NCBI GenBank assembly: GCA_009377605.1
Contig: WHTT01000050.1
Span: 1 to 50,132, forward strand
Source of the DNA: Luteitalea sp.
Lineage (GTDB): Bacteria > Acidobacteriota > Vicinamibacteria > Vicinamibacterales > Vicinamibacteraceae
Direction: 5' to 3'
DNA length: 50,132 nucleotides
Shown: one piece after another, positions 8,346 through 29,064 of the stretch
Position numbering within the stretch: position 1 is the first letter of the stretch
Layout: every line of letters begins with the position of its first letter
Translations under genes and position numbers: made by a program
Notes under the pieces: generated by a model
Seen by the model: the letters and a program-made list of their open reading frames with translations, nothing else
What the model was told of the DNA's origin: nothing
Database searches by the model: none

Positions 8346-9334
8346 AGACACTGGTCACGGGCGTAACGGGATTCACCGGTGGCCACCTGGCTCGGTACCT
8401 CAAGAGCCGTGGCGCCGAGGTGCGCGGCGTCGTTCGGCCGGAGAGCGCCAGCCGTCCGGTCGTCCAGGATCTGCGCGCGGCCGGCATCGAGATCGCAGAA
8501 GCGGATTTGAGCGATCCGCTGATGGTGGGAGAGGCGTGCGACGGCGCAGAGGTCATCTATCACGTGGCGGCAGCCTATCGGGAAGCAGGTCAGCCGGCGA
8601 CCATGTACCGAGAGGTGAACGTCGGCGGAACGCTGAACATTATTCACAACGCCCGATCCCGCAGCGTGCGGCGCCTCGTGTATTGCAGCACCGGAGGCGT
8701 CCATGGTCACGTGGCGAATCCGCCGGCCAACGAGAAGGCGCCCTTCAATCCGGGCGACATCTACCAGCAAACCAAGCTGGAAGCGGAAGAGGAGGCGCGC
8801 CGGGCCGGTCAGGGCGGCGACGTCGAGGTGGTCGTTGCTCGGCCCATCGGTATCTACGGCCCGGGTGACACACGGTTTCTCAAGATGTTCCGTGGGATCG
8901 CGCGGGGCCGATTCCCCATTCTCGGATCGGGCGAGGTCTTCTATCATCTGACGTACATCGATGACCTCGTCGAGGGGTTTCGGCTCTGCGGCGAGCTGCC
9001 GCAGGCGGCCGGGCGGACCTATTTACTCGCGGGGCCTCGGTATACAACCCTCAACGAGCTGACGCGGCTCATTGCGGACGAGCTGAAGGTCAAGCCACCG
9101 CGGCTACGGCTGCCGGTCTGGCCCTTCTGGCTCGCCGGGGCGGTGTGCGAGCTGGTGTGCGTGCCGCTGCGCGTGGAGCCGCCGCTCTATCGGCGGCGCG
9201 TGGACTTCTACACCAAGAGCCGTGCATTCGACACGACGCGCGCCCGCACGGAGCTGGCATACGAGCCCAAGGTGGATCTCCCCGAGGGGATCCGGCGGAC
9301 GGTCGCTTGGTATCGGGCGGAAGGGCTTTTGTAG
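8342..9334 (+). CDS. NAD-dependent epimerase/dehydratase (extended SDR)
   Basis: A 330-residue extended short-chain dehydrogenase/reductase. The nucleotide-binding motif TGVTGFTG is at residues 6-13 and the catalytic Y141-x3-K145 is in YQQTK. The overall plan resembles nucleotide-sugar epimerases and the hopanoid-linked HpnA group. It uses a GTG start overlapping the upstream glycosyltransferase stop by four bases and is followed after 18 bases by the next glycosyltransferase, so it probably makes or alters a sugar nucleotide for them. It is not closely similar to the other epimerase at 29065-30024. Exact substrate unassigned. Confidence 0.8.
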   Translation: MKTLVTGVTGFTGGHLARYLKSRGAEVRGVVRPESASRPVVQDLRAAGIEIAEADLSDPLMVGEACDGAEVIYHVAAAYREAGQPATMYREVNVGGTLNIIHNARSRSVRRLVYCSTGGVHGHVANPPANEKAPFNPGDIYQQTKLEAEEEARRAGQGGDVEVVVARPIGIYGPGDTRFLKMFRGIARGRFPILGSGEVFYHLTYIDDLVEGFRLCGELPQAAGRTYLLAGPRYTTLNELTRLIADELKVKPPRLRLPVWPFWLAGAVCELVCVPLRVEPPLYRRRVDFYTKSRAFDTTRARTELAYEPKVDLPEGIRRTVAWYRAEGLL

Positions 9335-9352
9335 GTCCTTGAATCTGTTTAG

Positions 9353-10567
9353 ATGCTGAACGTTGTCCAAGTCTGCGACCATCTCGGGTGGCCCGGCTCC
9401 CGGATGCACGGTGTCAAGCGGTTGTTTGCGTGGATGATCCCGCGCTTCGACAAGAGCCGATTCAATGTGTCGCTCGTCAGCCTCCGCCGCAAAGATCTCT
9501 CTGAGGACACGCTCGAGCAGCTTGGCGTCGATGTGACCTACCTGCACAAAGGGCGGTTCGATCCGTCGACGTGGACGGCCCTTGGCAAGGTCTTCGATGC
9601 CCAGCGCGCCGACATCGTCCATCTGCACGGCTATGGGGCGACGACGTTTGGTCGCCTGGCGGCCGCGACGCGGGGGCTGCCGGTCCTCTTGCACGAGCAC
9701 GCGAACCACACGGACACGCCGTGGTTCCAAAGGGTTGCCGATAGAATCCTTCAGCCCTATACGGACCTGGCGCTCGCCGTGTCTCAGTCGACGGCTGAGT
9801 TCGTCGTGCGTGCTCGGCTCGTGCCCGAGACCAAGATCAAGGTCGTTTACCTCGGTGTCCCGCTGGAGGAGTTTGCTCGACCGCGAAGCGGCGAGGAGAT
9901 TCGCGCGGCGCGTGCGGCCCTCGGCATCGACGCGGATACGTTCGCCCTCGGTACGGTGACGCGGCTCATGCCGTCGAAAGGCAACACATACCTCGTCGAC
10001 GCCATGAAAGTGGTGCGCGAGCGTTTGCCCAGTGCGCGCTGCTTCATTGTTGGCGAGGGAGAGCTGCAAGCGGAGCTCGAAGCACAGGCGCGGGCGCGTG
10101 GTGTCTCGGGCTGCGTGCACTTCACTGGCTTCACGCGGGATGTCGCGGGCGCGCTCGCCGCACTGGACCTCGTCGTCTTTCCGTCGTTGTGGGAAGGGAC
10201 GCCGCTGACCGCCTTCGAGGCACTGGCCATGGGGAAGCCGATCCTGGCCACCGATGCCGATGGCCTGATGGACATTCTGACCGACGGGCGCGACGCACGC
10301 ATCGTTTTGCGTCGGGATGCAGGCGCGCTCGCGGCCGCCGTGCTCGAGCTCCACGATGATCCAGAGCTCCGGATGCAGCTGGGGCGCCACGCGCATGCGA
10401 CCGGCATGCAGTACGACATCCAGGCCTTCGTCCACAAGATGGAGCGGCTCTACGAGCTGATGCACCGCGTCTCACGCCGAACGAAGCGGCAAGGGCTGCT
10501 TCGGGAGGACCTGAGCTTTCTCGGCGGACCGGCCGAGGCCGGGCCCCCCCAGGGGGCGCCTTGGTGA
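9353..10567 (+). CDS. Glycosyltransferase, family 4-type (GT-B fold)
   Basis: A 404-residue protein with an N-terminal acceptor-side domain (VVQVCDHLGWPGSR, VHLHGYGATTFGR) and a C-terminal Glycos_transf_1 domain (GTVTRLMPSKGNTYL, FIVGEGELQ, FPSLWEGTPLTAFEALAMGKP). The SLWEGTPL..FEAL segment is the E-x7-E donor-phosphate motif region. The ATG at 9353 is preceded by little Shine-Dalgarno sequence, so it probably depends on coupling to the upstream gene. The last ~20 residues are proline/glycine rich and lie outside the fold. Third gene of the 7.1-12.5 kb operon. Specificity unknown. Confidence 0.85.
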   Translation: MLNVVQVCDHLGWPGSRMHGVKRLFAWMIPRFDKSRFNVSLVSLRRKDLSEDTLEQLGVDVTYLHKGRFDPSTWTALGKVFDAQRADIVHLHGYGATTFGRLAAATRGLPVLLHEHANHTDTPWFQRVADRILQPYTDLALAVSQSTAEFVVRARLVPETKIKVVYLGVPLEEFARPRSGEEIRAARAALGIDADTFALGTVTRLMPSKGNTYLVDAMKVVRERLPSARCFIVGEGELQAELEAQARARGVSGCVHFTGFTRDVAGALAALDLVVFPSLWEGTPLTAFEALAMGKPILATDADGLMDILTDGRDARIVLRRDAGALAAAVLELHDDPELRMQLGRHAHATGMQYDIQAFVHKMERLYELMHRVSRRTKRQGLLREDLSFLGGPAEAGPPQGAPW

Positions 10568-27642: not shown

Positions 27643-28071
27643 TCACTGGGCGCGCTGCCGTCCGACCGGCAGGATGCACGGCACGGCTTGCCGCCCATGA
27701 CGACGATAGACGCGGAAATCCCTATCGGTGGTGAGCAGTACCACGTCCGCCAAGGTCTCCGTCATGCGCACGAGGCACGCATCCGCCAGGCTCATCGGTA
27801 CGTCCGCGTACTTCTCCATCAGCCTCAGCGGTCGCTCGAGGTCGTCGTTGAGGTCGAAGGCGGCGAGGAGCGCCCGGCGGCGGAGAAGAGCAACGAGTGC
27901 AGACTCACCGCGAGACTCCAACAGGTGAAACGTCTCTGAAAGCACGGCCTCGCTCGTGTGCCACGGCGGCGGAAAGCGCTCCGCTTGGGCCGCGGCCCAG
28001 CGGTGGTATCCATCGCGATGGCTCAGCAGCGCAACGAGAAAGCCGGCGTCAACGACCACGCTTCCGGCCAT
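27643..28071 (-). CDS. vapC: PIN-domain toxin (VapC-like)
   Basis: A 142-residue PIN-domain protein, probably an RNase that cleaves RNA when freed from its antitoxin. The acidic active-site residues are in place: D8 (VVVDAG), E46 (LSETF), D97 (SLADACL) and D116/D118 (LTTDRDF). The ATG overlaps the antitoxin's 3' end by 23 bases, the usual antitoxin-first arrangement. It converges with the DUF885 gene with a 13-base gap. RNA target unknown. Confidence 0.85.
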   Translation of the reverse strand: MAGSVVVDAGFLVALLSHRDGYHRWAAAQAERFPPPWHTSEAVLSETFHLLESRGESALVALLRRRALLAAFDLNDDLERPLRLMEKYADVPMSLADACLVRMTETLADVVLLTTDRDFRVYRRHGRQAVPCILPVGRQRAQ

Positions 28072-28306
28072 AGTCGGTCTTGTGAAGATATTCCTTCCGG
28101 CGCGCGCTCAGATCGCGAGGGAGCCCGTCGACCGAGCCAATCAGATCAGCAATGGCATCGATCGCGGGGCGTCCGGAGCGCGAATCACCGCGCGACGTGA
28201 GGCGCTCGCGAACGACATCGGACTTCGAAACCTTCCGCCCACGGGACTCGGCTTCGATGTCGGCGACGAGCGCTTCCGGCAGCCTGACGGTGAGACTCTT
28301 CTTCAC
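28049..28306 (-). CDS. Ribbon-helix-helix antitoxin
   Basis: An 85-residue protein. The N-terminal KKSLTVRLPEALVADIE strand-helix is a CopG/Arc-type ribbon-helix-helix DNA-binding domain that should dimerise. The basic C-terminal tail (LSARRKEYLHKTDYGRK) would wrap the PIN toxin. I place the start at GTG 28304-28306, with GGGAAGG upstream; a longer frame exists but adds residues outside the fold. It overlaps the toxin gene by 23 bases. Autoregulation through the inverted repeats just upstream is probable. Confidence 0.82.
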   Translation of the reverse strand: MKKSLTVRLPEALVADIEAESRGRKVSKSDVVRERLTSRGDSRSGRPAIDAIADLIGSVDGLPRDLSARRKEYLHKTDYGRKRGR

Positions 28307-28321
28307 GGCACACCTTCCCAA

Positions 28322-28355
28322 CAGTGTTTCACTGCCCCAGTGTAATACGACACTG
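28322..28355 (-). promoter_or_regulatory. Probable antitoxin operator (CAGTG inverted repeats)
   Basis: CAGTG-N3-CACTG at 28322-28334 and CAGTGT-N6-ACACTG at 28338-28355 give four half-sites, 16-50 bases before the antitoxin GTG. Clustered short inverted repeats at this place are typical ribbon-helix-helix operators. The rest of 28356-28458 shows nothing else. Confidence 0.5.
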
Positions 28356-28458
28356 CCAACTACGCAATACATGACGCACCCGACCAGCGGTTCGGTGTTG
28401 TGCGTGGGTGATCGCGCCGTGAGCTAAGGACCGGCCGACGACCTGTGGACGAGAGTGG

Positions 28459-28464: not shown

Positions 28465-28618
28465 TCAACATGTGCCGTAGTGGTCCGAGGTGATCGCCGC
28501 GGGCGGCGCCCGCGATGGGCGCCGGTAGCGGAGGAAAGTCCGAACTCCAGAGGGCAGCGTGCTGGCTAACGCCCAGTCAGGGTGACCTGAAGGAAAGTGG
28601 CACAGAAAACATACCGCC

Positions 28619-28731
28619 CGCCTTCGCGCGCTACGCGCGCTATGGCGAGGCAAGCCCCTGAGGCTGTTGGGCAGCGCAGCCCGGTGGTCGGGGAGCTTGC
28701 TTCGCCATAGCGCGCGTAGCGCGCGGAGGCG
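28619..28731 (+). repeat. Palindromic repeat forming an oversized P12 of rnpB
   Basis: The left arm 28619-28655 and right arm 28695-28731 are nearly perfect reverse complements (core CGCGCTACGCGCGCTATGGC). Their two mismatches are of the G-U type in RNA, so the stem is preserved. Confidence 0.85.
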
Positions 28732-28844
28732 AGTAAGGGTGAAAAGGTGCGGTAAGAGCGCACCGCGCACCCCGTGAGGGGTGTGGCAGGCTAAACCCCA
28801 CGCGGAGCAAGACCAAATAGGGGGGCGCTGGCGGGCCGGCGCGG

Positions 28845-28881
28845 GCTTGTCTCGCCGTAGCGCGCCTCGCGCGCGAAGGCG
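28845..28881 (+). repeat. Second copy of the same palindrome arm in rnpB
   Basis: 28845-28881 aligns without gaps to 28695-28731 (GCTTG...CGCC.TAGCGCGC...GCGCGCG.AGGCG) with about six differences in 37 bases. It sits in the P16/P17 region of the same RNA. Confidence 0.75.
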
Positions 28882-29064
28882 GGTCACCGCGCACGGAGCT
28901 CGCCGGGAGGGCTGCCCGCTCGAAGCCTCCGGGTAGGTCGCTAGAGACCGTCAGCGATGACGGTCCGAGAGGAATGATCACCACCGAGCTCGCCGGGAGG
29001 TGGGCGCGGAACAGAATTCGGCTTACTGGACCACTGCGACCTTATTCATACCTCTTGAATTTCC

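Follow-up and report, generated by a model that had tools for sequence, protein, structure and literature searches.

Our analysis placed one RNase P RNA gene (rnpB) of type A at positions 28477..29041, on the plus strand, of the 50,132-nt stretch of Luteitalea sp. DNA that was analysed (the window). The gene scored 240.2 bits against RF00010, which has a gathering threshold of 100, and covered the type A model from end to end (model positions 1-367). Its length of 565 nt is set by the ends of this Rfam match; the first-pass annotation, made from the letters alone, had described an enlarged gene of about 557 bases. This rnpB is the single RF00010 match in the whole assembly (6.79 Mb in 382 contigs), which also encodes the protein subunit of the enzyme, rnpA (PF00825, 87.4 bits). 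A plasmid search with rnpB returned ordinary rnpB similarity only, and none of 42 records covered 80% of the query. Upstream of rnpB, on the minus strand, lie two small adjoining frames (28049-28372 and 27643-28071) that look toxin-antitoxin-like by eye, namely a ribbon-helix-helix-like frame followed by a PIN-like frame.

Two regions on the plus strand of the gene are long. P12 (28609..28734), bounded by the conserved ACAGAAA and AAGGGTGAAA, measures 126 nt against a median of 58 nt in 54 rnpB genes of the order Vicinamibacterales, and P16/17 (28822..28929) measures 108 nt against a median of 32 nt. Three copies of one palindromic element lie within these regions. They were scored with R1, a covariance model built from 22 dispersed copies of the element, none of them taken from rnpB. 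Copy 1 forms the left arm of P12 (28617..28656, plus strand, 51.9 bits) and copy 2, inverted, the right arm (28694..28733, minus strand, 27.4 bits); the outermost bases of the P12 match may be host stem, the ACCGCC..GG base being native to rnpB. The apical section separating the two (28657..28693, plus strand) is itself a stem-loop in the minimum free energy fold. Copy 3 (28844..28883, minus strand, 51.8 bits) is found at the tip of an extra stem in P16/17. With filters off, the next best R1 match in the 50 kb reached 12.8 bits.

Between the two P12 arms (28619-28655 and 28695-28731) there are 2 differences in 37 positions, each compatible with G-U pairing in RNA, and the repeat search gave 93% complementarity over 40 nt within P12. 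In the same 37-base register, four positions separate the third copy (28845-28881) from the left arm and six from the right arm, and the repeat search gave 90% complementarity to the left arm over 41 nt. The proposals that P12 is extended by a palindrome with 37-base arms whose mismatches are G-U compatible, and that an arm-like copy with about six differences lies in the P16/P17 region, were thereby borne out. In the window a 31-mer of the right arm, allowing up to 3 mismatches, had two matches, its own site and the left arm; 100 shuffles gave none. Each rnpB copy can be written as a hairpin of CGCC, an internal loop, GCGCGC, three bases, GCGCGC, a second internal loop and GGCG. The P12 of the window is thus a near-perfect hairpin built from two inverted copies of one palindrome, and the stretch 28605-28750 folds at -109.7 kcal/mol versus -66.5 (sd 4.0) in 200 dinucleotide shuffles (z -10.9). 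The folding energy of the P16/17 stretch alone is not unusual (z -1.04; 29 of 200 shuffles equally good). Two sub-threshold Rfam matches to mir-275 (E <= 1) on the P12 hairpin, one per strand, were taken as chance.

A separate 19-nt stretch in the P16/17 insert (28892..28910, plus strand) recurs as a direct repeat, with 18 of 19 positions identical, in P19 at 28982-29000, where a genome of the same genus (G001) differs. This shared stretch suggests sequence copying inside rnpB.

A palindrome family dispersed through the genome

A genome-wide search for the exact GCGCGC-core version with up to 3 mismatches returned three matches, all inside rnpB and none at any other place. This result first favoured the view that the inserts are RNA-specific helices, i.e. 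fast-evolving peripheral stems that resemble a repeat through a shared GC-rich hairpin nature. Relaxed patterns and the covariance model overturned it. When the core was left free, six further places outside rnpB were found, and one dispersed copy, CCCGCCTTCGC-TCGCCTCCGGCGA-GCTACGGCGAGGCAAGCC, has both ends as in the rnpB copy with a core that differs by paired changes. A pattern of the two ends matched 7 times in the window's genome and not once when reversed; it is present in 31 of 60 genomes, while the reversed pattern gave 3 matches in all of them (G002, G023 and G031). The family consensus of about 35-42 nt reads CCCGCC TTC GC-core-GC TWC GGCG n GGCARGCC, and its core varies by compensatory pairs. 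R1, for which E-values are rough, gave at least 104 matches at E <= 0.1 among 112 candidates scored in the window's genome, two or three of them in rnpB. A 400-kb sample of the same genome held 8 matches, or about 136 per genome by proportion, and 200 kb of G001 held 7; 107 kb of the negative control G037 held none. Judged with the reversed-pattern and G037 controls, the family is a dispersed palindromic repeat, REP-like in the wide sense. For the core that the first-pass annotation had proposed to look for outside rnpB, the answer is therefore twofold: the exact GCGCGC version is confined to the gene, and the family is dispersed through the genome with other cores.

Some dispersed copies have neighbourhoods worth recording. 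One (L262:1431-1467 on contig C30 of the window's genome, 34.3 bits) precedes the likely start codon of rnpA by about 24 nt, and therefore both RNase P subunit genes carry the element. Imperfect heptamer arrays, TTCCCGATTCCTGA being one example, follow six own-genome copies (L152, L153, L154, L145, L149 and L167).

Distribution across Vicinamibacterales

Over the 54 rnpB genes of the order the core segments between anchors are near-constant in length (60-61, 64 and 30-31 nt), and the variable helices range from 26 to 268 nt in P12, 30 to 108 nt in P16/17 and 10 to 67 nt in P19. An apparent 313-nt insert in P13/P14 of G046 proved to be a run of N, i.e. an assembly gap, and was dropped from the length count. 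An R1 scan (171.5 kb, E <= 0.05; 14 genomes at E <= 0.001) placed the element in P12 of 17 of these genes; P16/17 holds it in 2, P19 in 4, and P3 or the 5′ end in 5, with G029 carrying it at all four places. The scan gave 38 matches in 27.4 kb of rnpB versus 4 in 93.3 kb of flank, a 32-fold enrichment in which the 38 slightly overstates the number of places, as a palindrome can match on both strands.

The same-genus G001 aligns to the rnpB of the window throughout, variable helices excepted. Its P12 of 39 nt holds one element copy (38.6 bits), and its P16/17 has the extra stem without a copy; no clear target-site duplication, which MITEs show along with terminal inverted repeats, was seen between the two genes. 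The place of the inserts is thus not constant among relatives. According to the first-pass annotation, inserts at the same place in all relatives together with a core found nowhere else would have spoken for RNA-specific helices; the first half fails and the second holds only for the literal core. Carriers of the P12 element are scattered on the rnpB tree. Mapped on a tree built from rnpB cores, presence in P12 takes 14 changes among its 17 carriers and presence of two copies 9 changes among 9, on a weakly resolved topology (24 of 51 inner branches open) in which independent gains look the same as gains with losses. Contrasts also occur within genera: G019 has a two-copy P12 and G028, with a nearly identical core, has no two-copy P12, and P12 differs likewise between G026 on the one hand and G036 and G053 on the other, and between G009 and G021. 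From dispersal combined with this presence and absence we infer that the palindrome is mobile.

Wherever P12 matches R1 on both strands, the copies are inverted (9 of 9). Of the 62 dispersed loci fetched, 11 have a second copy no more than 150 nt away, in direct orientation at 9 and inverted at 2; the difference (Fisher p 0.0003) is weakened by shared descent of some of the P12s. Inverted-only pairs fit a filter that retains only inserts able to pair, and they support the earlier suggestion that the palindrome is tolerated where it extends a stem. The 268-nt P12 of G042 (L051) contains about four tandem copies of a unit of about 40 nt. Element-bearing P12s were also seen in records labelled Acidimicrobiia, Lentisphaerae and Rickettsia typhi, labels that are unchecked.

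A second stable RNA, tmRNA, has kept its length: it measures 350-359 nt in all 49 genomes of the order above the cut-off, 14 of which carry the P12 element. Elements lie beside tmRNA at 4 of 30 loci and within it at none, apart from two that reach a few bases into its 3′ end. The adjoining copies are L256:1853-1900, L255:1846-1904, L241:1912-1944 and L250:1409-1470, two of which abut the 3′ end, and a role in 3′ ends or termination is possible for such copies. Short elements of eukaryotes are known to derive from stable RNAs, and in parallel the dispersed repeats could have been thrown off from the abundant RNase P RNA. That direction would agree with the relatedness of P12 arms to dispersed copies, with the copy that precedes rnpA in this genome, and with those adjoining tmRNA in four relatives. 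Against it, the dispersed copies examined are without rnpB flank, and the family also populates genomes with an element-free rnpB, e.g. G008 (104 matches, rnpB without R1 match), as well as G055, where 116 family matches stand beside no recovered RF00010 match. We regard this reverse direction as highly improbable.

Enlarged genes are concentrated in this order. An rnpB of at least 500 nt is found in 17 of 53 genomes of the order versus 1 of 121 elsewhere in the phylum, the latter count leaving out 4 of 125 genomes with partial or fragmentary matches (G139, G151, G173 and G177). R1 matched none of 20 out-of-order rnpB genes (19 longer ones and one from a same-class genome), and element-bearing rnpB is therefore not general in the phylum. 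Many relatives within the order have a long P12 without any R1 match. The motif CACTCCTTCCAAGTGCGC was considered as another dispersed repeat and rejected: a search of 60 genomes gave 3 matches, in 2 of the genomes and each inside an rnpB span, and those long P12s are therefore not counted as mobile. This long P12 type, in which a hairpin precedes CACTCCTTCCAAGTGCGCCGGG-like sequence, occurs in several families (L060, L062, L053, L033, L050, L027 and L011); its 18-mer was found only in rnpB across the 60 genomes, and it is perhaps a conserved RNase P module.

Other palindromes in P12 and Y1 transposases

Two further palindromes, unrelated to the first and likewise dispersed, occupy P12 in other genomes. 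The P12 of G038 carries another hairpin. With up to 2 mismatches, the 18-nt arm of this hairpin has 106 + 110 matches in its own genome (two of these arms being the rnpB pair), compared with 0 for the reversed control and 9 matches in the other 59 genomes together. The 19 other G038 copies fetched are all complete palindromes, and their flanks pair as well. Within this P12 (L045), worn outer remains surround a fresh inner copy of the same palindrome, as if one copy had inserted into the tip of the other. The P12 of G023 holds a third palindrome type. Its 16-mer was matched exactly 9 times outside rnpB in a 194-kb sample, which was non-random in that it included the contig of rnpB and two that carry Y1 genes.

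These findings bear on the notion of RNA-specific helices. It draws on the many long P12s without an R1 match and on the CACTCCTTCCAAGTGCGC type, seen only in rnpB among 60 genomes, and the portion of PMC12974513 available to us describes peripheral expansion segments as known in RNase P RNA. It does not account for arms in G038 and G023 that are exactly identical to genomic repeats, for R1 scores of 27-52 bits on the three rnpB copies when nothing else in the window exceeds 12.8, or for the 0 of 20 out-of-order genes recognised by R1. As an explanation of the inserts we consider it very unlikely: it is contradicted for G038, G023 and the window, and it is right for CACTCC-type P12s.

REP sequences are short dispersed intergenic palindromes that go together with REP-associated Y1 (RAYT) transposases, and they bear a 5′ GTAG/GGAG tetranucleotide as signature. 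The copies read from the window's family vary at the position of this tetranucleotide (GTAG, GATAG-like, GAAG). The palindromes of G038 and G023 resemble the REP/RAYT arrangement, since each is short and dispersed and each flanks a Y1 gene at one of two Y1 loci. In G038, locus L287 has a Y1 frame at 959-1645 with palindrome ends near 843-914 and 1636, and the other locus, L113, is without element ends. In G023, locus L293 has a Y1 frame at about 8550-9368 with exact inverted ends near 8536 and 9421, and the other locus (L292, 18904) has no palindrome end nearby. We take the Y1 genes of L287 and L293 to be RAYTs, as read from their sequence. The window's family differs: in 32 Y1 neighbourhoods, including both of its own genome, one weak match (L209, 20.4 bits) was the only one at E <= 0.05, and no Y1 gene there is flanked by the element. 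Mobilisation of this family by a RAYT is thus not supported.

Origin and meaning of the inserts

Taken together, the data lead us to read the rnpB inserts as copies of a dispersed non-coding palindrome that is tolerated as an extension of peripheral stems, to which we give a probability of roughly 0.8. A dispersed copy would first have entered the tip of P12. The later copies, inverted in P12 and single in the P16/17 stem, may have arisen by re-insertion or, as is likelier for one or more of them, by copying inside the gene. Each copy is self-complementary and the inverted pair anneals, so that an insert at the end of a hairpin would do no more than lengthen a peripheral stem whose base stays the same (ACCGCC...GGGT); the extension itself is predicted from folding. 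Selection would tolerate it because the catalytic core keeps its length and sequence. Transposition would then be the cause of the insertions, which would be neutral and leave the enzyme unimpaired.

How much of this requires repeated entry is a separate matter. At least one of the three rnpB copies in the window was probably made by local copying, because the three are most alike each other and because the 19-nt stretch has been copied between P16/17 and P19. The first-pass idea that the same mobile element entered two peripheral helices is upheld as regards a dispersed family with presence and absence among relatives, yet the entry into two helices may have been one entry followed by local copying, since the rnpB copies resemble each other above any genomic copy. 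Carried to its end, this argument has one ancestral element-like P12 hairpin from which template switching or gene conversion in rnpB made the rest, the dispersed family having supplied only the seed. The GCGCGC core confined to rnpB, the single copy of 38.6 bits in the P12 of G001, and the 19-nt repeat at which G001 differs all point that way. What it leaves unexplained is the full end sequence GGCGAGGCAAGCC, common to rnpB and to dispersed copies of the same genome, as well as G038 and G023, where many copies in the genome are identical to the P12 arms. We hold local copying alone to be a serious contender with a little under an even chance.

Under the preferred reading of tolerated dispersed palindromes, P12 would be the main receiving helix in the order, with a fast turnover. 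More tentatively, and with the odds rather against it, P12 could be a genuine landing site in the order, at which unrelated palindromes, some of them moved by Y1 single-strand transposases, enter hairpin tips and replace each other. New expansion segments of this essential ribozyme would then come mainly from them, and certain of these segments could by now have taken on a function, as perhaps in the CACTCC-type P12.

Repeats in rnpB have precedents. Reportedly, Vioque in 1997 described STRR heptanucleotide repeats in the rnpB of heterocyst-forming cyanobacteria. These are alike in that a genome-dispersed repeat lies inside rnpB, and differ in being tandem heptamers and not palindromes. For Rickettsia, Ogata et al. 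2002, as cited in the available part of PMC2229807, described palindromic elements inside the genes for M1 RNA (RNase P) and tmRNA. There too, according to that part, a dispersed and maybe neutral palindrome lies inside the RNase P RNA gene. The Rickettsia elements are, however, given there as 105-146 bp long and are known for sitting in protein genes, so that, judged by length alone, the family described here (units of about 35-42 nt, in the window about 40 nt) does not belong to them. Unlike in Rickettsia, there are several copies per RNA, inverted pairs extend P12, unrelated families occupy one helix, and tmRNA is uninvaded. In the accretion model, RNase P RNA grows by segments inserted at helix tips, P12 included, with the older structure left intact (PMC12974513, in part). 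Our inserts are similar tip insertions, but the portion of that paper available to us names no source of the inserted RNA, whereas here the source is a dispersed repeat. The open PMC literature yielded no paper on palindromes in Vicinamibacterales rnpB, which does not show that none exists. New are the families themselves, the occurrence of several copies within a single RNA, spread over several helices, and the three unrelated dispersed palindromes in one helix across the order.

In models of RNA evolution, ribozymes and the ribosome grew by insertion at helix tips, yet the donor of a segment is seldom identifiable. Vicinamibacterales offer donor families in the same genomes, carriers beside non-carriers within genera, and three unrelated palindromes in one helix, and the origin, tolerance and turnover of expansion segments are therefore directly testable in this order. 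For the order itself it follows that rnpB length and P12 are unsafe taxonomic markers. More generally, the settling of short self-complementary repeats in the outer hairpins of rnpB appears to be one way in which old RNA machines gain parts.
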